Assembly: GCF_002189065.1 (NCBI RefSeq)
Contig: NZ_BDMN01000172.1
Coordinates: 1 to 33,512, forward strand
DNA length: 33,512 bases
From: Bathymodiolus platifrons methanotrophic gill symbiont
GTDB taxonomy: Bacteria > Pseudomonadota > Gammaproteobacteria > Methylococcales > Methylomonadaceae
Direction of reading: 5' to 3'
Within the stretch, counting starts at the first letter, position 1, and each line of letters begins with the position of its first letter. Positions 1-28,501 of this stretch are shown one piece after another. Position numbers and translations under genes: made by a program. Under the pieces are notes generated by a model that did not search any database, had not been told where the DNA came from, and saw nothing but the letters and a program-made list of their open reading frames with translations.

Positions 1-113
1 CTATCGCTCAGACTCCGACAAAACAACCGGCCCTACGGCTATCGCGGACTGAAAATCTTCACTTCGCTAAAGCTCCGTTTCCAGGATTTTCAGCGGAGGC
101 CGTTTTGTTTGTA
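1..113 (+). repeat. Dispersed repeat R1, copy 1
   Basis: This stretch is closely related to 17655-17757 (same orientation) and, in reverse orientation, to the segments around 4301-4345, 5468-5525 and 7023-7055. Shared words include CCCTACGGCTATCGCGGACT and CCGTTTCCAGGATTTTCAGC. The copy begins at the window edge, so its left limit is unknown. It can be read as protein in one frame, but the copies carry different indels, so it is better seen as a non-coding dispersed element. No transposase is visibly linked to it. Confidence 0.75.
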
Positions 114-511: not shown

Positions 512-1138
512 TCAGTTAATAAACAACTTTTTTAATTGTTTTTGCGTAATATTATTGACCAATAAATCTATCAATTGTTTTTTTGTCATTTTATTAAGAC
601 GTAGTATCTCATTATCGATGTTTTCATCTTCACCATTATCATTGGTACTAGGTTTTAACTCGGAAATTATTTCTTTAACATTGTTCAATGAGGGTTTATG
701 AATTTCTGATACACGCTCATATACAATATCAGCAACATCCTCTAATTTAGGAGCAGACATAATATACCCGGCACTAATAGGTATATTACCTAAAGGTCTC
801 TTATCATTAAAAAATCTTGATAAATTCATCAGGTGTGTTGCCATCTGTCCTGTAAGCCGTTCGTTAAACTTTAACGAACGCCATGCACCGAACTCATTAT
901 TACTTGAAAATCGTTTTCTAGCTTCCAGCAATATTAACCCTTTTAGTATGTGAGACTGTCTATCAACATCTACATACTGTTCAGCAAGATTATCTAAGGA
1001 TAATCCTGATAAATTAATTTCATGATGTTGTTTATCTAGTTTTTTTTTCTCAGCTTTATCTGCAAACTCTTCTGTTTTTTTTTCAATTTCATTTTTTGTT
1101 AATGACTCTGTGTTTTTATTACGATGTTTAAATGTCAC
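512..1138 (-). CDS. ParB-like partner protein of the ParA operon (unrecognised family)
   Basis: A 208-residue soluble protein encoded directly behind parA; the two genes overlap by about 11 bp, which suggests translational coupling. The N-terminal 50 residues are strongly charged and rich in Lys and Glu. Residues about 60-125 (YVDVDRQSHILKGLILLEAR through the SAGYIMSAP segment) have the look of a helical DNA-binding module of the kind seen in plasmid DUF3102-like proteins. The C-terminus is again charged, with a K/Q/L-rich tail. Position and size fit the small second partition protein that binds a centromere and stimulates ParA. No ParB nuclease-type or RHH motif is obvious, so the role is inferred from context. 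A palindrome that could be its site or a terminator lies downstream at 289-322. Confidence 0.6.
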   Translation of the reverse strand: MTFKHRNKNTESLTKNEIEKKTEEFADKAEKKKLDKQHHEINLSGLSLDNLAEQYVDVDRQSHILKGLILLEARKRFSSNNEFGAWRSLKFNERLTGQMATHLMNLSRFFNDKRPLGNIPISAGYIMSAPKLEDVADIVYERVSEIHKPSLNNVKEIISELKPSTNDNGEDENIDNEILRLNKMTKKQLIDLLVNNITQKQLKKLFIN

Positions 1139-1778
1139 TATTCAACACCTCATTTATGACTGAATTTATTTCAATTTTTGCTTTTGTATTATCAAATTCA
1201 ATTACTCCCATTCCTCGACCTGAAGAAATTGAATCCCTATATACTTTACGCTCTCGAATGATAGTAGATAATAAATATATATCTGGATACTCACTAAAAA
1301 ATCTTTGGGCATCTTCTGATTCATTAATAATAGGATTAGTTGGCCCCATTGATAACACAGCAAAAAATTTTAACGTTGGATTTAATTCTTCTTTAACATC
1401 TGAAACCATATCTCGCATAGTTGGAATTGTATCCAGATCAAACTGAGAAGGTCTCACTGGCATAAGAAAAACATCAGCAGCGACTAATCCTGTTCTTAAT
1501 TCTCTTGAGTCTCTACCAGCAGCATCAACAATAACATATTCATATCTGCTATTTAAATCTACCAAGGAAGCTCTTATGTTGTCATATTTTTGTATACAAT
1601 TAACAATAGGTAATTTTGGATTTTCAGATCTATCTTCAGCCCAATTACTTGATGATGACTGACGATCAGTATCTACAAGAACAACATCTTTGCCTTGAGT
1701 AGCCAATGCAGCAGACAAATTAACTGATATGGTAGATTTACCAACTCCACCTTTTTGACTACCTATCAATATGATCAT
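1128..1778 (-). CDS. parA: ParA-family partition ATPase
   Basis: A small ParA/MinD-type ATPase of about 216 residues. It begins MIILIGSQKGGVGKSTISVN, with the deviant Walker A box KGGVGKST containing the signature lysine, followed by a Walker A' region (VVLVDTDRQ) and a Walker B-like strand (YEYVIVDAAG). There is no N-terminal helix-turn-helix, which fits the short type Ib plasmid ParAs that move DNA with a small partner protein. An ATG at 1788-1790 would add four residues, but the ATG at 1776-1778 has a GGAG at a good distance, so the shorter start is preferred. The gene is followed by and overlaps its putative partner (512-1138). The IS200-like element sits just upstream and may have displaced the original promoter. 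Confidence 0.88.
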   Translation of the reverse strand: MIILIGSQKGGVGKSTISVNLSAALATQGKDVVLVDTDRQSSSSNWAEDRSENPKLPIVNCIQKYDNIRASLVDLNSRYEYVIVDAAGRDSRELRTGLVAADVFLMPVRPSQFDLDTIPTMRDMVSDVKEELNPTLKFFAVLSMGPTNPIINESEDAQRFFSEYPDIYLLSTIIRERKVYRDSISSGRGMGVIEFDNTKAKIEINSVINEVLNSDI

Positions 1779-1799
1779 TTCATACTCCATGATTTGTAA

Positions 1800-8208: not shown

Positions 8209-8605
8209 CTATAAATCTCTCTTTGTATCAGTGCCGTTTGTGTTAGCCCTGTTCTCACTTAATCACCCCTAATTATCATACCTGTAATGCCCGCAGGGCG
8301 CATTTTGCAAATTCTGAGACATACTTGTTCATGTGGACAATATATTGGCTCCCTACGGGACGTATTGATAAAGCATGGATAACGAAAAGATGTTATCCAC
8401 CCCTTACCAACACTAACCAACACATTCTCCACAATCACTGTCAATTACAGCAATATGGTTTCTCTTAAACCGCGCTCCGCGCATCAATAATAATCAATTG
8501 TATCTTTTATAAGAATAAAGAGATAGATAGTACAGCCATTTACCCCCTAAGGAAGGCTCAACAATCCCTTTCACAGCTCCCCCTCCGAAAAACTGCTAAA
8601 AAAAC

Positions 8606-10139: not shown

Positions 10140-10472
10140 AAAAAAACAGAGAATATCAGCTTGAGTTTCTGTGTATCTTGGAATCGTGTTACTCGAGTTT
10201 TCAAGTCCCTTTCACAACCGTTACGCTCTGCGCGTTACCAGATATATAAAATATCCGCCCCTGCTCCAAACGCGCCACCTTTTGCACTATAAAATTCAAA
10301 TCTCGCAATCAAAACGGCTATAAGCTTGCGACTTCTACTTTATACAAAAAATGCCTTATGGGTTACCTTAGCAAAGTCCTTGATCGGCAACGCTGTCCTG
10401 ACCTATCCCAAAACATCTTGAGTCCAAAATAGGGGCTGAGCTTGTAAAGAAGAGAGAGAAAACTTGAAATGC

Positions 10473-10503
10473 TTAACAAATGAGAGACTAATTAAGATAT
10501 AAT
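10473..10503 (+). promoter_or_regulatory. Probable promoter of the left-arm small RNA
   Basis: A perfect TATAAT at 10498-10503 lies 19 bases after TTAACA (10473-10478). The same TATAAT in the same context occurs at 16805-16810 in the right arm. Confidence 0.45.
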
Positions 10504-10509
10504 TAGTAT

Positions 10510-10632
10510 TCGTTTGATTGCAAGAGTGTGTCTCTTACTTTCAAGCTGTGCTGAGTGACTGTAATCACTCATACACAACCTTTAATAAAGGCAAAAAAAC
10601 CTAAGCACTTAAAAATGCTTGGGTTTTTTTTT
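10510..10632 (+). ncRNA. Candidate structured small RNA, left arm
   Basis: Between a TATAAT box and an intrinsic terminator lies about 120 nt with no reading frame but with several hairpins: AAGAG/CTCTT (10522-10536), GAGTGA/TCACTC (10553-10570), CCTTT/AAAGG (10579-10591) and the terminator stem AACCTAAGCA/TGCTTGGGTT followed by T8-9. The right-arm copy (16817-16937) keeps every stem while loops change, and a C-G pair in the terminator stem is exchanged for a U-G wobble. This is what selection on RNA structure looks like. A copy-number-control RNA for the nearby rep is a reasonable guess. Confidence 0.5.
10598..10632 (+). terminator. Intrinsic terminator of the left-arm small RNA
   Basis: A 10-bp stem AACCTAAGCA/TGCTTGGGTT with an 8-nt loop is followed by a run of T to 10632. 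A second stem-loop (AAGCCC/GGGCTT type with an inner AACTTT/AAAGTT stem) follows at about 10638-10672. Confidence 0.8.
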
Positions 10633-10890
10633 GCCTTTTAGCCCTAAACTTTAAAAGTTCGGGGGCTTGTTTCTAAACCTGAAAGAGGAAATATCAGATT
10701 TTATTACCAATAACTTTAGCTCATACAAGCAAGACATAGCAAGTTTAGCTGTAGTTTAGACTTCTAATAAGTCCTTTAGAGATTTGTTCTTGGCTCGTCA
10801 TCCTCCTAAGTTCATGAAACATGGGGGCGTTCTGTCATCGCTGTTCATTTACTAAATAAAGGGCAGTGATGACCAAGTTTTAGTTCTATC

Positions 10891-11352
10891 GCAAAAAAAA
10901 GAATGAGACATTATTACCTCCCCTCTTGGGTATGCAGCTCACTCGCGCCATAAAACAAGACCTACTCTCCCCCGCTATCCGAGCATATCTCACTCTCGCT
11001 TTACATCCCAACAGGTGTTCTTGGTGGCTTTGTCGTACAGACTTAATTGTGCCGTAAGGTTCAGTTGTTAGTTTATTACAGAGCAAGGTCCTACACCCCA
11101 CGTATTCATTGAAAAAGGGGACAGATAAGCTGTTTATACAACACAACCTATTTATCTGTCCCCTTTCCCGAAAACACGAGGGGGCTCCAGACTTCACTAT
11201 ATTTTTGAGTGGGTAGACTGGGTGAAGAGATCTAATCGTGGGATTATTAATTCAATACAACAGAACCGCAAAGCCGGCATGGGTTAGACCGGTGTCTGTT
11301 TTTTTTATAAGTGGGGCAGGGGGCTTGGTTTGGGGATAAGTGTAAAAATATC
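10891..11352. other. Non-coding stretch with a decayed rep fragment
   Basis: Bases about 11056-11205 are a decayed copy of the part of rep around 14445-14580, including the GGGGACAGATAA/TTATCTGTCCCC palindrome (11113-11168). The rest (10891-11055 and 11206-11352) holds no gene or known element that can be recognised. An open frame on the minus strand (10886-11197) crosses the palindrome and is not considered real. Confidence 0.6.
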
Positions 11353-11535: not shown

Positions 11536-14500
11536 TTGCTAGACAACTATGAGGATAACACAGAGCATCTAACAAGATTTTCTAAAATCTACAAATACAT
11601 TATATCATGTATTTCAAGAAAGTCTAGTTGTTCTGCTAAAAGCATGAATAAACTACATAAAAACACACAAAACGACCCCATTCAAGATAACACCGATTGT
11701 GCCACAGGGGTATCTACATCAAAAACAAAACGTCGAGCGAACCCTGCACCTGATTGTGAAGGCATCGGCAACGTTTCATACATGCGCCGGGTAGGCAATC
11801 CTAACAATCACTCTAATCAATCACTTGATGATGTTATTGATCTGATTAGATCGCATAAATATAAGCCGGTTACTCAATCATTAAGGGATTTGCGAGAGAA
11901 AAGTGAGAAAGCTTATAAAAAACAAAAGGCGATTCATTGTGAGGCTGTTAGCTTCAACGGTACATTCAAGTTAGGTCAGCCCGTAAAAAATGGGACTTTC
12001 GAGAAGTCGAGCGGTTTATTGATTGTAGACCTAGACCATCTGGAAGATGTTCACTTAGCTAAGTCGGACTTGATAACAAAACCTAATATTGTTTTTTGCT
12101 TTATCAGTCCCTCGGGCGATGGTTTAAAGCTAGGCGTTCGGGTTGATGCTAGCCTAATTAATAACGATGCGGACTTTAAGCAGGCTTATTTTCAGATAGA
12201 GTCGCTATTTAAAACATGGGGATATGAAACGGATCCCGCTTGTAAAGATATTAGCCGCAAGTGCTTTTTGTGCCATGATGCGGATGTTTTTTATAATCCT
12301 GATGCAGATATTTACAAGCTTAACCCATTCCAAGAGATAGCCCCCAAAGCCCCTCCAATAAGCAAAGAATACACGCCCAACAGCAACGAAGGCGACTGCC
12401 TGGAAAGCTGTATTAACACCATCTTAAATGCAAAGCCAGGCGAACGCCACGCGGCAAGGCTCAACGCAGGGAATGCACTAGGGCATTATGTTGCTAGTGG
12501 GAAGTTGGACGTAAAAAATGAGGATGATTATATCAACGCCCTCATTACTGCCAGCGATCAGATTGCAGGTAATGATGATGACCGTACCCGCGAAAAAGAA
12601 AATAAAGCAATCAAGGGTGGTTATCAGTATGGACTATTACACCATTCCGAGCCGGAGGCTTGGGAATACAACAGCGATCTGACTTTACTAAAAAATATCG
12701 AGAGTATTCCGCTACCAGCCCCAGACAAGGCAGTTTATTCAATCATTGCGAAAGCCGTACAGGCTCACCCTATAATCTCATATAAAGACACTATAACCGC
12801 GCTAGAAGATAGGATGGGATGTAAGCTGTCAGGTAGATACAAAGCACGGCTTAAAAAGCTACTTAGGAAACAGGACAAGGCTACGCGCAAATATCACACG
12901 GTGACGACCGATAGCCTGCCTGAATTCGACATAAACAGCGATGACGCAGCAAGTCGGATGCTGTCTGAATGGTATAACGCTATTTTTGTTGACATGCGGC
13001 CGATGGGTTCAGGTAAAACTTTATTCACCGCGTTATTATGGGCATATCTCCAAATGAACAATAAAGCTTTTGGCTACGTTGCCCCCCGTGTATCAATTAT
13101 TGCGGACATAGCAAATAGGCTAGATATTGAACATTATAACGAAGTTAGTCCGGGGGAGTTGTTCCAGTCATTGGCCGCCTGTGTGAATAGTGCAGTAGGA
13201 AGGGAGCATTTATTAAGCTTCTTTCGGCAGGTTGACTGTATTGTACTGGATGAATTTAAGCAGATAGTTGAACATATCGTGCGAGGTCCCTTTAATAATA
13301 GATCAGAGGGCTATGATTTGTTAATTGATATTATTAAGACTGTCCCGGTGGTTTATGTTGCTGATGCTGATATGAATGACCGTATGATTGAGATATTAAA
13401 AAGCACAGGTAAGCCAATGTTTAAGATAAAAGGGAGCGAGCGAAAACCAACTGCAACAATAAAGCACACCACCCCCAAAATTGCTAAAAGCGAATTTCTA
13501 AACCGTGTGAAAGCGGGTAAGACTGGCTTGTTCCAATGTGATTCTCTCAGTACTGCTAATATTGCCTATGAGGACGCTAAAGCGACAGCTCCCGCAGATT
13601 ATAAAATATTGCTGGTACACGGAAAGAATAAAGATGAGTTTGAACAAGCGGCTTACTTAAAGAGTCCTAATGAAGTTGGCAAGCAATATGATTTAATAAT
13701 TTTGACACCGGTTGTATCTAGCGGGTTTTCTATCGAGCTTGAATATGATTTTCATGTGGGTGTATTTAGTGGCCAGTTATCACCTACTGAAATAATCCAG
13801 ACTTTGGGACGTAACAGAAAGGCTAAGGATATTATTCTTGGACTCTCACCAAAGCGAAAACAGAAGCCCTTGAGTGTCACCGAACAAATAGCAGGCATCG
13901 TATTGGCCGAAAAGCGTATGAAATCTACAGATGGCCAGCTAATACACGAGCCAAATGAGTTTGACAAAGTGGCCGCAGGCATCATGGAAGAGTATGAAAG
14001 GTCTTGCGAACGTTTTGCACATACCACCTTGTTAATATTGGAGCAGAAAGGTTATAAGGTTGAAGCGCTGGAAGAACCAGAGAGCCTGATTATTATCAAA
14101 GGAACGGCTAAAGCGGTAAAGGCTAAGCATGTCCAAGATGTGATTCAAGCGGATTCTATTTCCGATAGAGAACACAGTAATTTAAAAAAGTCATCGAAAG
14201 TTACAGAATCCGATCACAACGCAATAGAGAAGTTTGAATGTAGAGAGCAACTAGCACTCGGAGAAGAGGTTTCAGAGAAGGATATTCTATTGTGGAATGG
14301 TGGAACGCTAGAACCTGTCCTCAAGAGATTTGAGATAGTAAACGAGAGTCCAGACAATACGCAATTACTAGATGAATATGAGAACGCAACGAGGATAGCC
14401 CCTAAAGACCGGACTTATGCCACTAGCCAAATGATAATATTTTATTCAGTTATGAGTTTATTACAGGGCAAGGGGATACAGCCCCCGTGTTCATTGAAAA

Positions 14501-14898
14501 AGGGGACAGATAAACTATCTATAACAAACAACAATGTTTATCTGTCCCCTTCCCCAGAAAACACGGGGATATCACTACAGCGTTATGATGCGGAACGAAT
14601 AAAAGCCGCTATTGACTATTTGCAAGCCAATTATCAGGAGGTACACGCCGCCGGGCTAGGCAATTTCAAGGCTGTTAATCGAAAGTTAGACACACGTACA
14701 TTAGGACAATTTTTAAAGAGATTCGGGCTGAAACATAAGCGCGTAGGCAAAAACCTCGCGGGGAATTACCAGATAACTGAGGACTCATTAATTCAAATGC
14801 AGGATATTAATAAACGCCGTAAAGCAAAGAAAATCAGTGCCTTTAATCGGGCGTGGGGGTGGCATAACCAAAAAGAACAAACAAAGATGGCTGCCTAA
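11536..14898 (+). CDS. rep: CyRepA-like plasmid replication primase-helicase
   Basis: About 1120 residues. The N-terminal part (residues about 75-260) matches the BT4734/VirE N-terminal type of primase-related domain, with GLLIVDLDHLE and SPSGDGLKLGVRV, where the aspartates would bind metal. The middle is an SF2-type helicase resembling the herpesvirus origin-binding protein family: Walker A MGSGKT (about residues 493-498), DEAD-like VLDEF, a motif III-like VADAD, and TLGRNRKA as motif VI. This combination is typical of CyRepA1-type plasmid replication proteins. The start is unsure: the frame opens with TTG at 11536, and the first ATG is at 11644; neither has a clear Shine-Dalgarno. A palindromic 31-codon insert lies at 14479-14571. 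The C-terminal 60 residues are basic. Its transcription is probably governed by the structured leader upstream. Confidence 0.8.
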   Translation: MLDNYEDNTEHLTRFSKIYKYIISCISRKSSCSAKSMNKLHKNTQNDPIQDNTDCATGVSTSKTKRRANPAPDCEGIGNVSYMRRVGNPNNHSNQSLDDVIDLIRSHKYKPVTQSLRDLREKSEKAYKKQKAIHCEAVSFNGTFKLGQPVKNGTFEKSSGLLIVDLDHLEDVHLAKSDLITKPNIVFCFISPSGDGLKLGVRVDASLINNDADFKQAYFQIESLFKTWGYETDPACKDISRKCFLCHDADVFYNPDADIYKLNPFQEIAPKAPPISKEYTPNSNEGDCLESCINTILNAKPGERHAARLNAGNALGHYVASGKLDVKNEDDYINALITASDQIAGNDDDRTREKENKAIKGGYQYGLLHHSEPEAWEYNSDLTLLKNIESIPLPAPDKAVYSIIAKAVQAHPIISYKDTITALEDRMGCKLSGRYKARLKKLLRKQDKATRKYHTVTTDSLPEFDINSDDAASRMLSEWYNAIFVDMRPMGSGKTLFTALLWAYLQMNNKAFGYVAPRVSIIADIANRLDIEHYNEVSPGELFQSLAACVNSAVGREHLLSFFRQVDCIVLDEFKQIVEHIVRGPFNNRSEGYDLLIDIIKTVPVVYVADADMNDRMIEILKSTGKPMFKIKGSERKPTATIKHTTPKIAKSEFLNRVKAGKTGLFQCDSLSTANIAYEDAKATAPADYKILLVHGKNKDEFEQAAYLKSPNEVGKQYDLIILTPVVSSGFSIELEYDFHVGVFSGQLSPTEIIQTLGRNRKAKDIILGLSPKRKQKPLSVTEQIAGIVLAEKRMKSTDGQLIHEPNEFDKVAAGIMEEYERSCERFAHTTLLILEQKGYKVEALEEPESLIIIKGTAKAVKAKHVQDVIQADSISDREHSNLKKSSKVTESDHNAIEKFECREQLALGEEVSEKDILLWNGGTLEPVLKRFEIVNESPDNTQLLDEYENATRIAPKDRTYATSQMIIFYSVMSLLQGKGIQPPCSLKKGTDKLSITNNNVYLSPSPENTGISLQRYDAERIKAAIDYLQANYQEVHAAGLGNFKAVNRKLDTRTLGQFLKRFGLKHKRVGKNLAGNYQITEDSLIQMQDINKRRKAKKISAFNRAWGWHNQKEQTKMAA
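14479..14571 (+). repeat. Palindromic element inserted in frame in rep
   Basis: A 93-bp block lies between direct repeats GGGGATA (14472-14478 and 14565-14571). It has an outer stem CCCCGTGTT/AACACGGGG and a long inner stem AAGGGGACAGATAAAC/GTTTATCTGTCCCCTT. Length 93 is a multiple of three, and it encodes a low-complexity loop with KKGTDKLS and YLSPSPENTG. Removing it joins QGKGI to SLQRYDAERI in frame. Related palindromes lie at 11113-11168 and 15045-15105, inside other fragments of rep. Confidence 0.75.
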
Positions 14899-14904
14899 AA
14901 AAGG

Positions 14905-15123
14905 CATCGAAAGTTTCAGAACTAATATGAAGGGACAATAAAGATAGCCCCTAAAGACCGGACTTATGCCACTAGCCAAATGATAATATTTTATTCAGTT
15001 ATGAGTTTATTACAGGGCAAGGGGATACAGCCCTCGTATTCATTGAAAAAGGGGACAGATAAACTGTTTATACAACACAACCTATTTATCTGTCCCCTTC
15101 CCCCGCAAACACGGGGGTATCAC
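14905..15123 (+). repeat. Fragment of a second rep copy
   Basis: Bases 14938-15123 repeat 14391-14575 of rep almost exactly (AGCCCCTAAAGACCGGACTT and onward, through the palindrome). Just before, 14905-14925 resembles 14189-14210, so this piece is a deletion derivative of a second rep gene. In the palindrome the outer stem has changed by a wobble pair and one mismatch, while the inner stem remains perfect over 15 bp. Confidence 0.85.
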
Positions 15124-15125
15124 TA

Positions 15126-15204
15126 CCCTGCGTCCGCCACAGACTGTGAGCACAAAGCAGCTCAGTCATGGCTACCACAAATGGCTCTACGGCTATTCGG
15201 GATA
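15126..15204 (+). repeat. Dispersed repeat R2, copy 1
   Basis: A 79-bp sequence beginning CCCTGCGTCCGCCACAGACT and ending GGCTCTACGGCTATTCGGGA matches 31854-31930. It contains the inverted pair TGAGC/GCTCA. It sits exactly between the rep fragment and the recombinase fragment. Confidence 0.85.
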
Positions 15205-16226: not shown

Positions 16227-16278
16227 GTGTTGGTAAGGGGTGGATAACGTCTTTTTGTTATCCACCCCTTACCAACAC
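16227..16278 (+). promoter_or_regulatory. 22-bp perfect palindrome with DnaA-box-like ends, candidate origin
   Basis: Bases 16227-16248 and 16257-16278 are perfect complements (22 bp) with an 8-nt loop, GTCTTTTT. The inner part of each arm reads GTTATCCACC, one mismatch from the DnaA box TTATCCACA. Directly after it ACCAACAC is repeated with 2-bp spacing. The left-arm copy at 8362-8413 keeps the right half and has a degenerate left half. A replication origin is plausible, but not proven. Confidence 0.45.
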
Positions 16279-16816
16279 TAGCCAACACATTCCCCACAAT
16301 CACTATCAATCACAGCAATATGATTTCTCTTAAACCGCGCTCCGCGCATCAATAATAAATAGTATTATTGATGGTACAGCCATGTATAGCCCCTAAGGCA
16401 GGCCTACGAATCCCCTTTCACAGCTTCCCCCTCCCACGACTGCTTTAAAAAAACAGATAATATAGGCTTGAGTTTCTGTGTATCTTGGAATCGTGCTACT
16501 TGAGTTTTTAAGCCCCTTTCACAGTCGTTACGCCCTGCGCGTTACCAGATATAATAAATATATCCACCCTTGCTCCAAACGCGCCACCTTCTGCATTATA
16601 AAATTCAAATCCCGCAGTCAAAACGACAATAAGCTTGCGACTTTTACTTTATGCAAGAAGTGCCTTATGGGTTACCTTAGCAAATATCCTTGATTGGTAA
16701 CACGGTCCCGACCTATTCCAAAACATCTTGAGTCCAAAATAGGGGCTGAGCTTGAAAAGAGAGAAGAAAAACCGAAATGCTTACAAATGAGAGGCTAATT
16801 AAGATATAATTAACAT

Positions 16817-16937
16817 TCGTTTGAAAGAAAGAGTCGTTCTCTTACTTTCAAGCTGTGGTGAGTGTTAGAATCACTCATACACAACCTTTATTAAAGGCAA
16901 GAAACCCAAGTACTTAAAAATGCTTGGGTTTTTTTTT
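16817..16937 (+). ncRNA. Candidate structured small RNA, right arm
   Basis: Counterpart of 10510-10632. TATAAT lies at 16805-16810. The first hairpin is extended here (GAAAG.AAGAG / CTCTT..CTTTC), the second keeps GAGTG/CACTC with a new loop, and the third becomes CCTTTATTAAAGG. The terminator stem AACCCAAGTA/TGCTTGGGTT with T8-9 closes it at 16937. No reading frame is preserved between the two copies. Confidence 0.5.
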
Positions 16938-17176
16938 ACCTTTAAGCCCTAAACTTTAAAAGTTCGGGGCTTGTTTCTAAATCTGAAATAGGAAATATCA
17001 TATTCTATTGCCGATAACCTTAACTCATACAAGCAAGATATAGCAAGTTTAAGACTTCTAATAAGCCTTTTAGACATTCTCTCTTGGCACGTTCATCCCC
17101 CCAATTTCATGAAGCATTGGGACGTCCTGTTATAGCTGTTCATTAACCACATAAAGGGCAGTGATGACCAAGTTTT

Positions 17177-17242
17177 GGCTCTGTCGCAAAAAACAAATGT
17201 TTGCGTAAAAATCAACTGTAACCTTTTTTTATGCGACAGAAC
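17177..17242 (+). repeat. 66-bp IS6-type MITE
   Basis: It starts GGCTCTGTCGCAAAA and ends TTATGCGACAGAACC, so it has 13-bp terminal repeats with one or two mismatches. Partial or decayed copies lie at 15668-15720 and 27375-27441. The ends match the IS6-type remnant at 29352-29702, so that family is the likely source of the transposase. Confidence 0.85.
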
Positions 17243-17447: not shown

Positions 17448-17757
17448 CCCAAACTACTTGAAGCGGGGAGTCGCTATTTTTGCGAAAGCTTGTTTTGGGC
17501 ATCCCAGCCCAAGCAAGCAGCAAAAACTTAACGCGACCACTTATGCCTCCGGCGGCCCCGATTCGTCCTCGTCACCTCGTCCCGACCCAACAAGGGGTCG
17601 GAACATAGGCTCCAAATGACTTGACGCCGTGTCGGATGGCCTTTTATTTTGTCTCCACCTTCGCTAACGCTCAGACTCCGACAAAACAACGGCCCTACGG
17701 CTATCGCGGACTAAAAATCATCACTTCGCTTAGGCACCGTTTCCAGGATTTTCAGCG
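17448..17757. other. Intergenic repeats including R1 copy 2
   Basis: Bases 17448-17654 have no gene; they include CCCAAACTACTTGAAG and short GC-richer pieces such as CCGACCCAACAAGGGGTCGG, an inverted pair. Bases about 17655-17757 are repeat R1, copy 2 (GCTCAGACTCCGACAAAACA and onward), which runs into the transposase fragment after CAGGATTTTCAGC. Confidence 0.6.
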
Positions 17758-19833: not shown

Positions 19834-21891
19834 ATGGACATCATCCAAACGATACTCAAAGACAGTAATTACCATCTTGCACTGTTCACAAAAAAGGAAA
19901 TAGAAGACTTACAAGAAACTATCTTTACCAAAATAACCAGAGGCAAAGAAACCCCCTATATAAATTGTATCGTTCGTAAAAAGGATATTCAGCTAAAACC
20001 AGAAGAAATTGTCCGCCAACTTTATGCGGCAAGACTTATCAATCAATATGGCTACACTAAAAAACGCATAAAGTTTGAATATTCTGTTACTTTTGGTAGA
20101 GAAAAGAAAAGTGCTGATATTGTCATTCTTGATAAAGATCGCCCTGATGCTGCCTATATCATTATTGAGCTAAAAAAGCCCAAGCTCAAAGACGGAAAAA
20201 ACCAGCTTCGTTCATATTGTAATGCTACGGGCGCATCTATCGGGGTATGGACAAATGGTGAGCAAATATCCCATTACCACCGTAAAGACCCTAATTACTT
20301 TGAAGACATCACTGATATTCCCAAGGAAAGGCAAAGTCTTAAGGATATATTGAGCGAACGCTTTACCTTAAAAGACCTCATCATCAAGGACAAAATCGCC
20401 AATGAAAGAAAATCCTTGAAAGACATCATTCTTGAAATGGAAGACGAGGTTTTAGCTAATGCTGGTGTGGATGTTTTTGAGGAAGTTTTTAAACTGATCT
20501 TCACAAAACTTTATGATGAATATGGAAGTAAAAAAGACAAGGCGAATATTGAATTTTATCTTGACCAAAATATTGATGATGAAGAAAGAGTGGATTACGA
20601 CAAGCTCAAAGAATCTCTTATCGGGCTAAATGATAAAAAATTCCGTGTCATGGAGTTTAGAAATACAGGGCAAACAGACACTGAACTAAAAAACAAAATT
20701 CAAGAACTGTTTGATGAAGCAAAAAACCAGTGGACAGGGGTTTTCCCTGATAGCTCAAATTTTGAGCTATCAGGGAGTCATTTATCGGTTTGCATATCCA
20801 GTTTTCAAGATGTGAAATTGTTTAATTCTAATCTTTTGGTCGTAGATGAAGCCTTTGAATATTTAGTCAACAAATCCGCTAAAGGTGAAAAGGGGCAATT
20901 TTTCACCCCTCGTCATGTCATTGATATGTGCGTGCAAATGCTCAACCCTAAACGGGGTGAGTATATGATTGATACAGCTTCGGGAAGTTGTGGTTTTCCA
21001 GTCCATACTATTTTTAAACTCACCGGACATCTTTTTACGAATGCGGAAATCCCAGAAGAAGAAAAGCAGCATGTTCTTAACATATTTGGTATCGACTTTG
21101 ACGAAAAAACGGTCAGGGTTGCACGAACATTAAACCTTATTGCGGGAGACGGTGAAACCAACGTATTGCATCTAAACACGTTAGATTTTGACCGTTGGAA
21201 TGACAAAACAGAAAAAGATAAAAAATGGATTAACACCTATGGAAAAGGCTTTAATCGGCTCGAAAAACTTCGCTCTGAAAAAGACGAAGATAAGCACTTT
21301 AATTTTGATATTTTAATGGCGAACCCTCCCTTTGCAGGAGACATCAAAGAAAGCCGTATCCTGCACCAATATGAACTTGGCTTTAAGGAAAACGGAAAGG
21401 CACAAAGCAAAGTCGGGCGGGATATTCTCTTTATTGAAAGAAATCTGGACTTTTTAAAGCCGGGGGGACGCATGGCAATTGTTTTGCCACAAGGTCGATT
21501 TAATAACACATCTGATAAACATATCCGTGAATTTATAGCACAGCATGGGCGTATTCTGGCGGTGATAGGTTTACACGGTAACAGTTTCAAACCCCACACA
21601 GGCACAAAAACTAGCGTTTTATTTGTTCAAAAATGGGATGATGAGCTATGCCCTAAAGTCGATGACTACCCGATATTTTTTGCCGTAAGTGAAAAGGGCG
21701 GAAAGGATAATTCAGGCGATTATATCTATGTGAACAACGGTAACGGACAATACAAGTTAGATAAAAACGGACATTTGATTGTTGACCATGACTTACATAA
21801 TCATGATGGAGAATTGCAAGATGGTATCGCAGAAGCTTTTATTGAGTGGGCGAAAAATGAAGAATTATCGTTTTTTGGTGGGGGAGAATAA
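19834..21891 (+). CDS. Nuclease-methyltransferase fusion (HsdR N-terminal domain plus N6-adenine methylase)
   Basis: A 685-residue restriction-modification protein. Residues about 55-150 form an HsdR-N-like PD-(D/E)XK nuclease domain: SADIVIL with Asp95, then IIELKKPK with Glu112 and Lys114, then QLRSYCNATGASIGVWTNGE. A helical linker follows, and then the N6-adenine methyltransferase domain: a region YLVNKSAKGEKGQFFTPRHV, AdoMet motif I DTASGSCGF (380-388) and catalytic NPPF (497-500). There is no helicase or translocase domain. Together with the adjacent specificity gene, 2 bp downstream, this is the layout of BcgI-like type IIB enzymes, where the fused subunit both cuts and methylates as the specificity subunit directs. 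Motif I has Ser-Cys where many enzymes have Gly-Thr/Gly. The ATG has no strong Shine-Dalgarno. Confidence 0.85.
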   Translation: MDIIQTILKDSNYHLALFTKKEIEDLQETIFTKITRGKETPYINCIVRKKDIQLKPEEIVRQLYAARLINQYGYTKKRIKFEYSVTFGREKKSADIVILDKDRPDAAYIIIELKKPKLKDGKNQLRSYCNATGASIGVWTNGEQISHYHRKDPNYFEDITDIPKERQSLKDILSERFTLKDLIIKDKIANERKSLKDIILEMEDEVLANAGVDVFEEVFKLIFTKLYDEYGSKKDKANIEFYLDQNIDDEERVDYDKLKESLIGLNDKKFRVMEFRNTGQTDTELKNKIQELFDEAKNQWTGVFPDSSNFELSGSHLSVCISSFQDVKLFNSNLLVVDEAFEYLVNKSAKGEKGQFFTPRHVIDMCVQMLNPKRGEYMIDTASGSCGFPVHTIFKLTGHLFTNAEIPEEEKQHVLNIFGIDFDEKTVRVARTLNLIAGDGETNVLHLNTLDFDRWNDKTEKDKKWINTYGKGFNRLEKLRSEKDEDKHFNFDILMANPPFAGDIKESRILHQYELGFKENGKAQSKVGRDILFIERNLDFLKPGGRMAIVLPQGRFNNTSDKHIREFIAQHGRILAVIGLHGNSFKPHTGTKTSVLFVQKWDDELCPKVDDYPIFFAVSEKGGKDNSGDYIYVNNGNGQYKLDKNGHLIVDHDLHNHDGELQDGIAEAFIEWAKNEELSFFGGGE

Positions 21892-21893
21892 AG

Positions 21894-23327
21894 GTGAAGA
21901 TTTCTATTCTTAATAAGAATGAATTAGAAAATGAATTTACAATTGGCGCAGAATTTTATCAGCCTTACTATGTCCAAAAAGTAGATAAAATAAAAAGTAA
22001 AAACAACGTTTATTTACTTGGTAATTTATGTTTCTTAATTACAGATGGAGATCATAGCGCAACTCAATACACCGATGATGGGATCTTATATCTTCTAAGC
22101 GAATCTGTAAAAGAAGGTTATATTGATACCAATATAAAAAGATATATTTCTAGTGACTTGCACAACTCACTTAAAAGATCAAAATTAAAACCTAGGAATA
22201 TCTTACTCACAAAAACAGGGGTCTATTTCGGAAAAAGTGCTGTAATACCAGATGATTTCCCCGAAGCAAATACAAGTGCCCATGTAGGAAAGTTTGTAGT
22301 AAAAGAAGAAATTATTAACCCCTATTATCTTTCTACTTTTTTTAACTGTGAATACGGTTACTCCCAGCTTAGAAGACGTGGAATAAAGGCATCACGCCCC
22401 GAAATAAAATTGATAGAATTCTTTGATATAAAAGTATATGTTGCAGCTAAATATTTCCAAAATATAATAGAAAAAACAATAAAAAAATCAATTGCTATTT
22501 TAGACGAATCCAAAGAGAAAATTGATTTTTCTAAAAATCTACTTCTATCTGAACTTGGAATAACTAACTGGCAACCGAAACACAAATTATTTTTTATTAA
22601 AAACTATTCTGATACTGAACAATCAAAGCGCATCGACGCGGAATATTTCCAGCCAAAATATGATGAGATCATCAATGCTATCAAAGCCTATAAGGGCGGT
22701 TGGGATGCGCTCGGAAACCTTGTTGATGTTAAAAAAAGTATTGAAGTTGGACGCGGGGAATATCTCGATGAAGGCATACCATTTGTGAGGGTAAGCAACA
22801 TTAGTCTCTTTGAACTATCAGAGGGAAAATATATCTCGGAACAGCTCTACGCAGAACTAACGCAAGATGAACAGGACATACCATTTGAAAAATCCAAAAC
22901 CCATCAACCACAACAAGGCGAGATATTATTCAGTAAGGATGGTTCTCCAGGAATTGCCTATTATCTAAAAGATAAGCCTCAGAAAATGGTTGTTTCTGGA
23001 GGCATATTGCGTCTCCAGAGTAAGGCAGACACGATAAATAATGAATATCTTACCTTGGTACTGAACTCTGTTTTAACACAAGAGCAGGTAAAGCGTGATG
23101 TCGGTGGTTCTATTATATTGCATTGGCGACCTGAGCAAGTGAAAGAAACAATCATTCCTATTCTACCACAAGCTCAGCAACTACAAATACAGCAAAAAAT
23201 TACTGAATCTTTCGAACTACGCAAACAATCAAAGCAACTTCTCGAAAATGCTAAACGAGCCGTTGAAATAGCTATCGAACAAGATGAAAGCAAAGCTATT
23301 CAGTGGTTAGATGCTCAATTAGTCTGA
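21894..23327 (+). CDS. hsdS: Restriction-modification specificity subunit with two recognition domains
   Basis: A 477-residue HsdS-type protein starting at GTG with GGGGGAG just upstream inside the methylase gene end. Residues about 1-190 form the first target-recognition domain and about 240-445 the second. Each is followed by a helical spacer (the first contains IIEKTIKKSIAILDESKEKI, the second LQIQQKITESFELRKQSKQL) of the type that forms the antiparallel coiled coil. DAEYFQPKYDEI at the start of the second half mirrors GAEFYQPYYVQK at the start of the first, showing the internal duplication. It should give the upstream nuclease-methylase its DNA specificity, probably for a bipartite site. 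Confidence 0.88.
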   Translation: MKISILNKNELENEFTIGAEFYQPYYVQKVDKIKSKNNVYLLGNLCFLITDGDHSATQYTDDGILYLLSESVKEGYIDTNIKRYISSDLHNSLKRSKLKPRNILLTKTGVYFGKSAVIPDDFPEANTSAHVGKFVVKEEIINPYYLSTFFNCEYGYSQLRRRGIKASRPEIKLIEFFDIKVYVAAKYFQNIIEKTIKKSIAILDESKEKIDFSKNLLLSELGITNWQPKHKLFFIKNYSDTEQSKRIDAEYFQPKYDEIINAIKAYKGGWDALGNLVDVKKSIEVGRGEYLDEGIPFVRVSNISLFELSEGKYISEQLYAELTQDEQDIPFEKSKTHQPQQGEILFSKDGSPGIAYYLKDKPQKMVVSGGILRLQSKADTINNEYLTLVLNSVLTQEQVKRDVGGSIILHWRPEQVKETIIPILPQAQQLQIQQKITESFELRKQSKQLLENAKRAVEIAIEQDESKAIQWLDAQLV

Positions 23328-24846: not shown

Positions 24847-25596
24847 ATGAAAGCTATAGTTATAGGGATTTTGTTAGCCCAATCCATCTCGTTTGCATTT
24901 GCGGGATTTGATCCGGATGTAGAAAGAAACTCAAGTAATTCTAAAATAAATGAGCATTATATAGCTATAAATGCCACGGATATTAGTAATCTAGCCGCGC
25001 ATATTTCGGATAATAAACGTGACATTGGGCATATCTTCCCGCCTATCCCGAAGAATCGCACCAAACATCTTATGCTGAAGCATTGTACTGGTACTCATGT
25101 TTTACACTGGGGGGATTGTCCAACCTACTCTCTCGGGGATTCAGGTCCCGCAGGAGGTATGGTGTTTCAGGTTTCAAAGGATAAAGAACACGGCTTAGAA
25201 CTTCAAGTTATTGATGGAGATTATCAGTGGGGTTGTGATGGGACATATCTTCCCAACGCGGCACACAATAACATTGGAGCTGGGATGATAAATACTGCGG
25301 TAATCTTAGATTCAGAGTGTAAAAGTACCGATGGCTCTACGACAGCAGCTGAGGTGGTTTCTAATTATTCGCACGGTGGATTTAGTGACTGGTACTTGCC
25401 CTCAAGAGGTGAGTTATTTCTAGCATATGAGGTTTTATACCCTAAAGCCCCTAAGCCTGACAGGGATGAGCATATATATTGGTCCTCTTCTGATTATGGA
25501 AATGATAAAGCTTGGACTGTAGATGGGATAGCGGGGGAAAAGACTCAAGACTACAAAGTTACCCCCAACTTCCTCGTTGCTATTCGTTCATTCTAA
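24847..25596 (+). CDS. Secreted DUF1566-like protein 1
   Basis: A 249-residue exported protein with signal peptide MKAIVIGILLAQSISFAFAG, AGAGG as ribosome site, a helical N-terminal spacer (residues about 25-65) and a C-terminal DUF1566-like domain. The domain shows the family hallmarks in order: HCTGTHVLHWGDCPTYSLGD (a Cys pair), SGPAGGMVFQVSKDKEHGLE, WGCDG, GGFSDWYLPSRGEL, IYWSSSDY and a final VAIRSF. The family resembles C-type-lectin-like and formylglycine-enzyme-like folds and is thought to bind ligands. It is the first of four tandem paralogues and may share a promoter with the second, 17 bp downstream. It starts right after the IS1634 remnant. Confidence 0.75.
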   Translation: MKAIVIGILLAQSISFAFAGFDPDVERNSSNSKINEHYIAINATDISNLAAHISDNKRDIGHIFPPIPKNRTKHLMLKHCTGTHVLHWGDCPTYSLGDSGPAGGMVFQVSKDKEHGLELQVIDGDYQWGCDGTYLPNAAHNNIGAGMINTAVILDSECKSTDGSTTAAEVVSNYSHGGFSDWYLPSRGELFLAYEVLYPKAPKPDRDEHIYWSSSDYGNDKAWTVDGIAGEKTQDYKVTPNFLVAIRSF

Positions 25597-25613
25597 CTAA
25601 CTAAGAGCTGCTA

Positions 25614-26387
25614 ATGAAAATTCCAACATTAAATAATAACACTTTGATGAGCGGTGTCTTTTTTGTCACCGCGTTATTCAGTCATTTTGCTATAGCTGAT
25701 ACTACAGATGATACGACTGCGAGGGTCATAAAGAATTCTGACAATATTGCTAAAAATAAAGGTGAGCTAGAGAAGGCCAAGAGTGCCGTTGAAATTATGG
25801 CTGATAGGGTTCAGAGGTTAGCGCCTCTTCCTCACAATGAAAGACCACAAGAACAGTTTATGTGGCTTTGTAAAGACAGTGATTATCCTCAGTGGGGGGG
25901 GTGTGAAGACATCTACAAGGTGGGGGACACGGGACCCGCAGGCGGAATTGTCTATTATATTACCGATGATGGACAGCATGGCTTAGAAGTGGGCTTAGAG
26001 GACTTGGGTCCCGCAGACTGGGGCTGTGATGGAACCGCTATTCTTAAGGCTCAAGGGAACGATGCGTTAGCAGTCGGGAGGGGTAAAGAAAATACAGATG
26101 CAATTTTAGCAGGCTGCTCTTCACAAAGTTCAGCAGCATACTTGGCATCTAATTACTCGAGTAACGGTATCGCGGGTTGGCACTTGCCTTCTTTAGATTC
26201 CTTGAATTTAATATTCGAAGAGATCTATCAAAATGGATTGGGAGAATTTAACGGGAATCATCAGTTTTGGTCATCTTCAGAGTACGACGTACATATTGGC
26301 ATGCTGAAAGACTTTGATGGTGGTTCTGGGCATGAATCTAAGTCGTCATCGGACGGGATTTCAGTTAGACCTGTTCGTCCTTTCTAA
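25614..26387 (+). CDS. Secreted DUF1566-like protein 2
   Basis: A 257-residue paralogue with a longer signal segment (MKIPTLNNNTLMSGVFFVTA, cleavage probably after AIA), a coiled-coil spacer (residues about 35-75, RVIKNSDNIAKNKGELEKAK) and the DUF1566-like domain: LCKDSDYPQWGGCEDIYKVG, DTGPAGGIVYYITDDGQHGL, DWGCDG, GIAGWHLPSLDSL, FWSSSEY and a C-terminal ISVRPVRPF. This is the best match of the four to the family consensus. Only 17 bp separate it from protein 1. Confidence 0.78.
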   Translation: MKIPTLNNNTLMSGVFFVTALFSHFAIADTTDDTTARVIKNSDNIAKNKGELEKAKSAVEIMADRVQRLAPLPHNERPQEQFMWLCKDSDYPQWGGCEDIYKVGDTGPAGGIVYYITDDGQHGLEVGLEDLGPADWGCDGTAILKAQGNDALAVGRGKENTDAILAGCSSQSSAAYLASNYSSNGIAGWHLPSLDSLNLIFEEIYQNGLGEFNGNHQFWSSSEYDVHIGMLKDFDGGSGHESKSSSDGISVRPVRPF

Positions 26388-26443
26388 CCCACGTATAAAT
26401 ACAGACAGCCCAAGTATGGTTATTAAATGAAAGAGGATAATTT

Positions 26444-27361
26444 ATGAGTTTTTTTAAACTGGCATTCCTATTGATCTTATCAGGGGTGGCCGTCTCAGCA
26501 GTGGCATCTCAGATTGAAAATAATACTGCTGAGATTGCAAAAAACACCAGTGCAATAGCAAAATATAAGGAAGATATTAAAAAAACCGAAACATCTTCAG
26601 CCGATAATAAGAGGGGTATCAAAAATAGTAATATCCCACCTTTTCCGGAAGATAAAATCAACTCATTGGCTCTAAGGCTTTGTCCAGGTAGTGATGAACC
26701 TCAATGGGAGGAATGTGAGTCTAATCCAGGCGAAGATGGGGATGATACCACCTCTAATAACTTACCTGCGCATTGTAAAGATATGTCTAAAGTGAGATCT
26801 GATGATAGAACACCAGAAACCGCCAAAACCTTATCAAAACTCCAAAATACTGATTGTGCTCTTGAGTATAAAGTAGGTGATATTGGACCTGTAGGGGGGG
26901 TTGTAATTCATGTTACATATGATGGTAAGCATGGTATCGAAGCATCTACTGACCGAATAGAATCAGCGGCTTGGGGCTGCTCTAAGACTTATGTATTGGG
27001 TGCTGATGCAGTAACTATTGGAAGTGGCCTTGGTAATTTTAACAGGATGATACGGTTTGAATGTGATGGAACTTTTTCAATGACAGGTCATGAAACATAT
27101 AATATTGCTTATAATGTGACTATATTTATGAAGAATAATTTTGAGGACTGGTATTTGCCAAGTGTCGATGAGATGATTATTCTTGTTGATACTTTTAATA
27201 AAAAAGGTATTCAAATTCCTAGAAAACATTACTGGACCTCTTCACAAAATGATACCGAGAACGCATCAGCTATTTATGTTGATAATGCCAGTGAAATAGT
27301 GCGCCGAAAAACTCGTAAAAAAACACATCATTTTCCTGCTATACCTGTAAGGAATTTTTGA
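26444..27361 (+). CDS. Secreted DUF1566-like protein 3
   Basis: A 305-residue paralogue with signal peptide (MSFFKLAFLLILSGVAVSAV, cut near ASQ), an asparagine- and lysine-rich spacer with heptad-like repeats (NNTAEIAKNTSAIAKYKEDI), and a domain that differs from the others. About 50 residues (NPGEDGDDTTSNNLPAHCKD and onward) are inserted between the first Cys-W-Cys pair and YKVGDIGPVGGVVIHV. The later motifs WGC, FEDWYLPSVDEM, YWTSSQ and IPVRNF are kept. GAGGA precedes the ATG. It is followed by a short MITE and repeat R3, so it ends the first three-gene run. Confidence 0.72.
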   Translation: MSFFKLAFLLILSGVAVSAVASQIENNTAEIAKNTSAIAKYKEDIKKTETSSADNKRGIKNSNIPPFPEDKINSLALRLCPGSDEPQWEECESNPGEDGDDTTSNNLPAHCKDMSKVRSDDRTPETAKTLSKLQNTDCALEYKVGDIGPVGGVVIHVTYDGKHGIEASTDRIESAAWGCSKTYVLGADAVTIGSGLGNFNRMIRFECDGTFSMTGHETYNIAYNVTIFMKNNFEDWYLPSVDEMIILVDTFNKKGIQIPRKHYWTSSQNDTENASAIYVDNASEIVRRKTRKKTHHFPAIPVRNF

Positions 27362-27374
27362 TAATGGCCAGGAG

Positions 27375-27483
27375 GATTCTGTCGCAAAAAACAAATGATT
27401 TTGTGAAATCAATTGTACTCTATTTCTTTTGCGACCGCTGTCAGCCCCCCGAAGTATGATAGTCTCCAGAACAGGCGCGCCTG
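27375..27483. repeat. Decayed IS6-type MITE and dispersed repeat R3
   Basis: Bases 27375-27441 resemble the 66-bp MITE of 17177-17242: GATTCTGTCGCAAAAAACAA at the left, a decayed TTTTGCGACCGCTG at the right. From 27434 to 27480, CGCTGTCAGCCCC, then ATGATAGTCTCCAGAA and GGCGC, match in reverse 31985-32030 inside the ATPase-gene insert (R3). A 12-bp perfect palindrome CAGGCGCGCCTG lies at 27472-27483. The 73 bp before the next gene hold nothing recognised. Confidence 0.65.
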
Positions 27484-27556
27484 ATTACGATAATATAGTG
27501 CTAATGCGGGGAAGAGATAGAGTCTTAATCAAATTTCTAAACATAGGATATAATTA

Positions 27557-28501
27557 ATGAACATTCTAAAATCAAAAAAACTAATCTTGGTTATATCGCT
27601 AATAACGAGCCTCATAATAACCAACTCAGTATCTGCTAATACTCTTCAGGGAGCATTGGATGAGACTAATCAGTCTATTTCAGAAGTTTTTTGCCCTGAA
27701 TTACTAGCCAATGGTCAGTGTAAGTATGATATTGGTGATCCTGATGTAGATAATATTTTCAAAGAGTATTATAGCAAGTTGCTTGAGGATGATACTCTCG
27801 CGGAGTCTTATAGGCATTTAAAAGATTACTATAACTATTCAAAGGGGATTCCTCAGAATATTCTAGCTATCTCTTGCCCTAAATTACTAGCCAATGGTCA
27901 GTGCGCATATGACATTGGGGATAAAGGGCCTGCGGGAGGTGTGGTCTTCTATGTAACTGATGATGGCGAACATGGGTTCGAAATGGCTCCAGAGAATCAA
28001 TTCACTTATACACCTTGGGTGATAGATAAGTCAAAACTTTGGGGTTGTGATGGTGTTATGGTTCCCGGTACAGGGGACTTGGGTGTTGGGAAAGGCAGAT
28101 CGCACACACAAGCTATCCTAGATAATTGTGAAGCCCCCGAGGGTGCCATACTCCTTGCCCAGATGGCTCATGATTACACTCTTAATGGATATAGCGACTG
28201 GTTTATCCCCTCGCTAGGTGAGCTACTCTTAATGCGCACAAACTTATATGTGGACAGAGATTACGACTTTGAGTCACGTCTACTAGTGAGTTCAAGTGAG
28301 GACAGATTCTATCATGCGGAGAACATGAAGAGTTCACTGGCTGGAGAGGGTTCCGCCGATGATTTCATAGACCCAATAGAACCCTTTAGAGGTGTGTGGA
28401 GGGTAAAATTCTATTTTAAAGACCGTAGTGATATTAGAAAAATAACTAGAGCGGCGTCTAAAGAGTGGGGTCTATCAATGCGAGTTATTCGAGAATTCTA
28501 A
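27557..28501 (+). CDS. Secreted DUF1566-like protein 4, with internal duplication
   Basis: The longest of the four at 314 residues. It has a signal peptide (LILVISLITSLIITNSVSA then NTLQG). A segment CPELLANGQCKYDIGD is followed by about 50 helical residues and then CPKLLANGQCAYDIGDKGPA, so the start of the DUF1566-like domain is duplicated. The second copy continues normally: GGVVFYVTDDGEHGFEMAPE, LWGCDG, GYSDWFIPSLGEL, VSSSED, and ends SMRVIREF. The W of the usual WSS motif is replaced by V. The hairpin CCAGCC/GGCTGG (28507-28536) shortly after the stop could end the transcript. Confidence 0.75.
   Translation: MNILKSKKLILVISLITSLIITNSVSANTLQGALDETNQSISEVFCPELLANGQCKYDIGDPDVDNIFKEYYSKLLEDDTLAESYRHLKDYYNYSKGIPQNILAISCPKLLANGQCAYDIGDKGPAGGVVFYVTDDGEHGFEMAPENQFTYTPWVIDKSKLWGCDGVMVPGTGDLGVGKGRSHTQAILDNCEAPEGAILLAQMAHDYTLNGYSDWFIPSLGELLLMRTNLYVDRDYDFESRLLVSSSEDRFYHAENMKSSLAGEGSADDFIDPIEPFRGVWRVKFYFKDRSDIRKITRAASKEWGLSMRVIREF

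Follow-up and report, generated by a model that had tools for sequence, protein, structure and literature searches.

A palindrome inside a plasmid-type rep gene from a methanotrophic gill symbiont: a candidate replication-origin element

Why would a replication gene carry a long nested palindrome within its coding sequence and still be read straight through it? The question is raised by the rep gene in a stretch of 33,512 nucleotides, hereafter the window (contig NZ_BDMN01000172.1), from the Bathymodiolus platifrons methanotrophic gill symbiont, for which a draft assembly in 613 contigs was used. From sequence comparison, we consider that the palindrome may be a cis-acting replication-origin element located in the 3' part of rep of a plasmid-type replicon, and we give this reading a probability of roughly 0.5.

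The palindrome and its host gene

The palindrome inside rep, denoted copy A, consists of two nested stems (Table 1). The inner stem, formed by AAGGGGACAGATAAAC (14500-14515) and GTTTATCTGTCCCCTT (14536-14551), is a perfect 16 bp closing a loop of 20 nt, and the outer stem, formed by CCCCGTGTT (14483-14491) and AACACGGGG (14560-14568), is a perfect 9 bp. The starts of the two GGGGATA words are spaced by 93 bp, that is 31 codons, and the rep reading frame is uninterrupted through the block. The first-pass annotation of this DNA had described just such a 93-bp nested-stem palindrome between GGGGATA words, with 31 in-frame codons and no stop in a CyRepA-like Rep, and this description of the stems, the interval and the open frame holds.

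Folding of palindrome A gave z values of -6.1 as RNA and -7.6 as DNA. In synonymous-codon shuffles of rep, 0 of 200 matched the inverted-repeat strength (span 40-56) seen in the 3' part of the gene (p=0.005), so codon composition does not account for the palindrome. Matches in an Rfam scan were confined to miRNA models from eukaryotes and to histone stem-loop models, all below gathering scores, and were taken as chance. A different hairpin close to the rep start (11570-11614) resembles the histone stem-loop model (E 0.0007, under the gathering score), probably by chance.

Rep is composed of a BT4734-like_N primase-type domain (Pfam, residues 136-253), a CyRepA1-type helicase (489-951) and then a C-terminal domain; the linker encoded with palindrome A, about residues 978-1012, lies between the latter two. 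The match to NCBIfam NF042913 (CyRepA1) reaches 197.5 bits against a cut-off of 200, and the protein is filed as CyRepA1-like. By tblastn, Rep is homologous to RepA of N15, phiKO2, PY54, VP882 and phiHAP-1 (E 7e-11 to 7e-42) in the helicase region only, and its N-terminus differs from that of telomere-phage RepA. The nearest paralogue, on contig C19 (L051:2209-5448), has the same helicase and C-terminus with a Toprim_3 domain in place of BT4734-like_N, and in relatives on C214 and in G016 BT4734-like_N is apparently joined in one gene to a VapE-like part that was read from the sequence. By its domain content the window Rep looks like a chimera. Exchange of the primase domain was noticed across the window, C19, L086 and L087; in the last two a BT4734-like_N part is seemingly joined to a VapE-like part. 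An AlphaFold prediction for Rep residues 861-1120 from two sequences had a pLDDT of 39 and was unusable.

Table 1 Coordinates of features in the window
Feature	Position	Strand	Remarks
Gene adjoining parA, possible ParB-like partner	512..1138	-	No Pfam match; similar pair on contig C331
ParA-type ATPase gene	1128..1790	-	Pfam AAA_31, 2e-22
Copy 0	11060..11181	+	Non-coding; lies upstream of rep; inner stem within 11115-11166
rep, 1120 aa	11536..14898	+	Pfam, NCBIfam; homologous to N15/PY54/VP882 RepA
Repeat block containing palindrome A	14375..14578	+	91-93% identical to copy B
Left GGGGATA word	14472..14478	+	
Palindrome copy A	14483..14568	+	Nested stems, 20-nt loop; coding, Rep residues about 983-1011
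Right GGGGATA word	14565..14571	+	
Tandem-duplication remnant of rep 14183-14208	14896..14921	+	rep stop TAA (14896-14898) at junction
Copy B	14924..15128	+	Directly past rep stop; non-coding (1-nt loop deletion); inner stem within 15049-15099

Copies around rep and in the symbiont genomes

The block is not single, which the first-pass annotation had missed: it is one of three copies around rep, all in the same orientation. Copy 0 represents about 120 bp of the ~200-bp repeat and is 83% identical. Copies 0 and B have a common loop, distinct from that of A, in which one nucleotide is lost, and this loss makes both of them non-coding. The remnant at the rep stop together with copy B points to a roughly 713-bp tandem duplication of the 3' end of rep with a 166-bp deletion. 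In the two most complete modules (the window and L041), copy 0 comes first, rep with its internal copy A follows, and copy B is last; recombinant copies join A with B (L042, L043) or 0 with A (L045). When copy A, which is coding, is compared with the non-coding copy 0, divergence is 7-12% in the inner arms, 34% in the loop and 19-45% in the spacers; one stem pair is compensated in L050. The covariation count over 27 copies did not exceed that of shuffles (1 double change). Since these copies are too similar to one another and gene conversion is possible, the stem-conservation line is weak, and shared ancestry or gene conversion could account for much of the conservation.

Past copy B, other copies are followed by a VapE-domain gene, and the window has another repeat from 15128 instead. 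We considered 15128 as the end of a mobile element and rejected it: in other copies the homology runs past this position into the VapE-containing module, and the break is peculiar to the window.

In the window genome, further copies of the palindrome lie on contigs C331 and C289, a diverged one lies inside the second rep gene on C19, and C66 has a 34-bp fragment. The C289 copy is non-coding and stands upstream of a small Lcl_C-type gene. The word AAGGGGACAGAT occurs nine times in this genome, eight times as an arm of four full palindromes and once in the partial copy on C66. Only one of the 60 relatives searched, the Bathymodiolus japonicus methanotrophic gill symbiont (G001), has matches to the repeat (13 matches), and its copies sit in rep modules; most of its rep copies are decayed, which we counted against the origin reading. 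The plasmids collection gave no match to the repeat DNA; the viral_contigs collection gave no relative of Rep and, when searched with the palindrome, just two unrelated contigs. At one locus (L049:3848-4474) the Rep C-terminus is fused in frame, at the 3' arm of the palindrome, to the N-terminus of an HTH_38 (IS30-like) transposase.

This distribution bears on the reading of the palindrome as a REP sequence kept by a REP-associated tyrosine transposase (RAYT); the first-pass annotation had found one of its words reminiscent of such repeats. GGGGACAG does resemble REP-type words, three genes of the window genome score above the RAYT cut-off, and a similar GGGGACAGAT palindrome occurs in one unrelated viral contig (L120). 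However, AAGGGGACAGAT is confined to rep-module palindromes and the one partial copy, no GGGGACAG lies closer than about 1.5 kb to any of the five best-scoring RAYT-type loci, no RAYT gene flanked by the palindrome was found in a close relative, and the Y1 gene of the window belongs to IS200/IS605 (147.7 bits, compared to 29 bits for RAYT). We reject this reading as extremely improbable.

Several other repeats and genes were recorded in the window. A repeat of roughly 295 bp (17464-17757), probably MITE-like, is 96-99% identical in many loci of the B. japonicus symbiont and on C331, and window positions 1-95 match its end. A 79-bp repeat (15126-15204) starts where copy B ends, is 95% identical at 31854-31930 and is present in several loci of the B. 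japonicus symbiont. At 16227-16278 an inverted repeat (GTGTTGGTAAGGGGTGGATAAC) has perfect arms of 22 bp that enclose 8 nt of loop; similar copies occur at 8362-8413 and at other places in the two genomes. Direct repeats of ~750 bp, 86% identical, flank the rep module (10140-10898 and 16447-17193). Small Lcl_C-related proteins, paralogous to one another, are encoded in clusters at 24847-28501 and in L050, with tandem arrays on C289. A type I restriction-like pair occupies 19834-23327 (HSDR_N_2 fused to N6_Mtase, then a probable specificity subunit without a Pfam match), and an AAA_23/AAA_13 gene at 29914-32854 is apparently split across three ORFs.

Insertion, by-product or conserved structure

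The first-pass annotation had read the block as a 93-bp insertion into an otherwise smooth gene. The C19 Rep, about 59% identical to the window Rep, contradicts this: it aligns gap-free through the block with homologous codons, and the peptide TDKLSIT is identical in both proteins while the DNA has diverged. The C19 gene has an inverted repeat, ACAGACAGAT..28..ATCTGTCTGT (shuffle p=0.015), with the same axis as that of the window; the symmetry axes are at 2990.5 and 2867.5 in the two genes, and their difference is the exact 41-codon offset. Both genes have the core GACAGAT/ATCTGTC, and adjoining it three consecutive pairs are changed on both sides with complementarity kept (GGG/CCC to ACA/TGT). 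The gap-free homologous codons and the hairpin on the same axis show that the block is older than the split between the window and C19 genes. A recent in-frame (RPE-like) insertion is thus rejected, on this paralogue and on the distribution of copies, and the right GGGGATA word is ruled out as the target duplication of a recent insertion by the same alignment. The annotation had named homologues with the same peptide in unrelated DNA as the sign of native coding sequence, and C19 comes near to this, with position the same, peptide partly conserved and DNA diverged.

The alignment of homologues that it had proposed gave a divided answer. Present without a gap in the closest paralogue, the block is absent in distant Reps: all eight that were aligned lack most of the linker, with 36 residues missing in a MAG Rep (L092) and a similar gap in seven phage and plasmid Reps. 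Distant CyRepA1/N15-type RepA proteins are without the roughly 30-36-residue linker, and an ancient gain may, on these alignments, have occurred. One form of it would be an in-frame insertion of a MITE- or RPE-like mobile palindrome before the window and C19 genes diverged from their ancestor, with copies 0 and B spread later. The shorter distant Reps would fit, as would copies outside intact rep genes such as that on C289. However, the repeat blocks reach well into rep coding sequence (14375-14482) with no consistent ends or target duplications, the distribution tracks rep modules, the tandem duplication accounts for copy B, and the C19 stem has different outer pairs and no shared element sequence. 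We find this insertion unlikely.

Sixteen rep genes, each scored in six regions, were compared with synonymous-codon shuffles for interrupted palindromes of span 40-56. In the 84-97% region of rep they were in excess among 14 relatives (Fisher 1e-4, a value that overstates the case as relatives are not independent) and among 8 less related genes (Fisher 0.04); the five other regions, serving as control, had no excess (p 0.3-1.0). Span, region and penalties were picked after a first scan that included 10 of the 16 genes, and the six genes added later gave p values of 0.025, 0.9, 0.29, 0.015, 0.025 and 0.025. Examples are TGGGGACACTTC..27..GAAGTATCCCCA in VP882, AGGGATACTTT..27..AAAGTATCCCT in pF010_1 and GTGGATCACGGTTTA..23..TAAAACGCGATCCAC in NAR688. 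Within the VP882 group, GGGAYACTT..AAGTATCCC recurs, with outer and inner pairs compensated between VP882 and pF010_1. N15, PY54 and phiKO2 were singly non-significant in the shuffle test (p 0.17-0.24), and the strict test found no palindrome in HFM1, the MAG or phiHAP-1. Inverted-repeat structure in the 3' part of rep is conserved across the family, though some members do not reach significance. The palindrome of N15/VP882-type Reps falls in the C-terminal tail and not in the inter-domain linker, so the positions correspond by analogy and not by homology.

These tests also weigh on a neutral account, in which a chance palindromic coding stretch and the debris of duplication and recombination have no cis function. 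Repeats, IS remnants and rep pseudogenes abound in the genome, recombinants between copies do occur, and covariation among close copies is non-significant. Nevertheless, the shuffle values of the window and C19 genes, the latter with its common axis and three compensated pairs, and the restriction of the excess to the 84-97% region make this account quite unlikely.

The ParA-type ATPase gene of the window is consistent with a plasmid-like replicon, and it raises the alternative that the dispersed inverted repeats are a partition (parS-like centromere) or regulatory site bound by the putative ParB-like partner of parA. Several copies around rep, a parA with a neighbour gene on the same contig, and a putative partition site annotated inside repA in the phiKO2 record are compatible with this. 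However, the phiKO2 site is merely 18 bp long and at the 5' end of repA, and the arms in the family are 20-28 nt apart in the 3' part of rep; we judge a partition site improbable.

A candidate origin element and related replicons

According to PMC10612081, which cites Ziegelin 2005, circular plasmid replication in PY54-type phages needs only repA. If repA alone suffices, an origin must be located in or at this gene. Ziegelin (2005) reportedly mapped a 212-bp PY54 origin to the 3' part of repA and described structural elements that N15 and phiKO2 conserve. The window palindrome lies at the matching place of a homologous gene, and an origin element would be its most likely role. Besides the decayed rep copies, the following weigh against this role: the non-significant covariation, the lack of individual significance in N15, PY54 and phiKO2, the absence of a palindrome in HFM1, the MAG and phiHAP-1 under the strict test, the tail position in N15/VP882-type Reps, and the choice of span and region after a first scan.

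As an origin element, the interrupted palindrome would be recognised by Rep, perhaps through extrusion as a hairpin or through binding of its two arms, and the helicase and primase domains of Rep would start replication there. The encoded peptide would be a variable linker that precedes the C-terminal domain, a place at which the protein can accept whatever sequence the DNA has to retain. Copying of the element downstream, as copy B within the tandem duplication, and upstream, as copy 0, would explain the three same-orientation copies that the most complete modules hold. We infer that the element functions and fires as an origin, that Rep binds it, and that copies 0 and B have a role.

We put forward more tentatively, as a possible but doubtful extension, that an origin in the coding sequence of its own initiator was then exported, giving one doubly constrained coding copy (linker and hairpin) and two non-coding flanking copies around a Rep that combines a BT4734-like primase domain with a CyRepA1-type helicase. 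If true, exported origin copies could control copy number or outlast the loss of rep. If the origin reading is right, the locus uses one stretch of DNA as both protein linker and origin, with the origin duplicable free of the gene; rep-internal palindromic origins would be a common trait of the CyRepA1/N15 RepA family, and the synonymous-codon test would find origins from sequence in many plasmids and phage-plasmids that lack an annotated one.

Three known systems can be compared. Rickettsia palindromic elements (RPEs), to which the first-pass annotation had likened the block, are also palindromic DNA translated in frame within a gene; they recur in many unrelated genes (PMC10969869). In contrast, no in-frame copy of the window palindrome was found in any unrelated gene: its copies keep to rep modules, the sole other context seen (C289) is non-coding, and homologous codons run gap-free across the block in the closest paralogue, hence no insertion polymorphism. 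We therefore reject RPE membership, and the interpretation of the annotation is partly supported overall. Plasmid Reps of the CyRepA1 type, such as Slr7037 of Synechocystis pSYSA (PMC9978351), have a helicase domain that the window Rep resembles, at a score just under the family cut-off. Priming in pSYSA has been proposed upstream of rep, in the ssr7036-slr7037 spacer, and not inside the gene (PMC9978351). The RepA replicons of N15, PY54 and phiKO2 and of VP882 and phiHAP-1 have a homologous helicase, and in many members the 3' part of rep holds an interrupted palindrome of ~50 bp. No protelomerase was found among the Pfam-scanned ORFs of the window, which are a subset of its ORFs on a contig that may be partial. 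Compared to the telomere phages, the window replicon has a BT4734-like_N N-terminus, a palindrome in the linker and not in the tail, two extra copies and a longer perfect stem.
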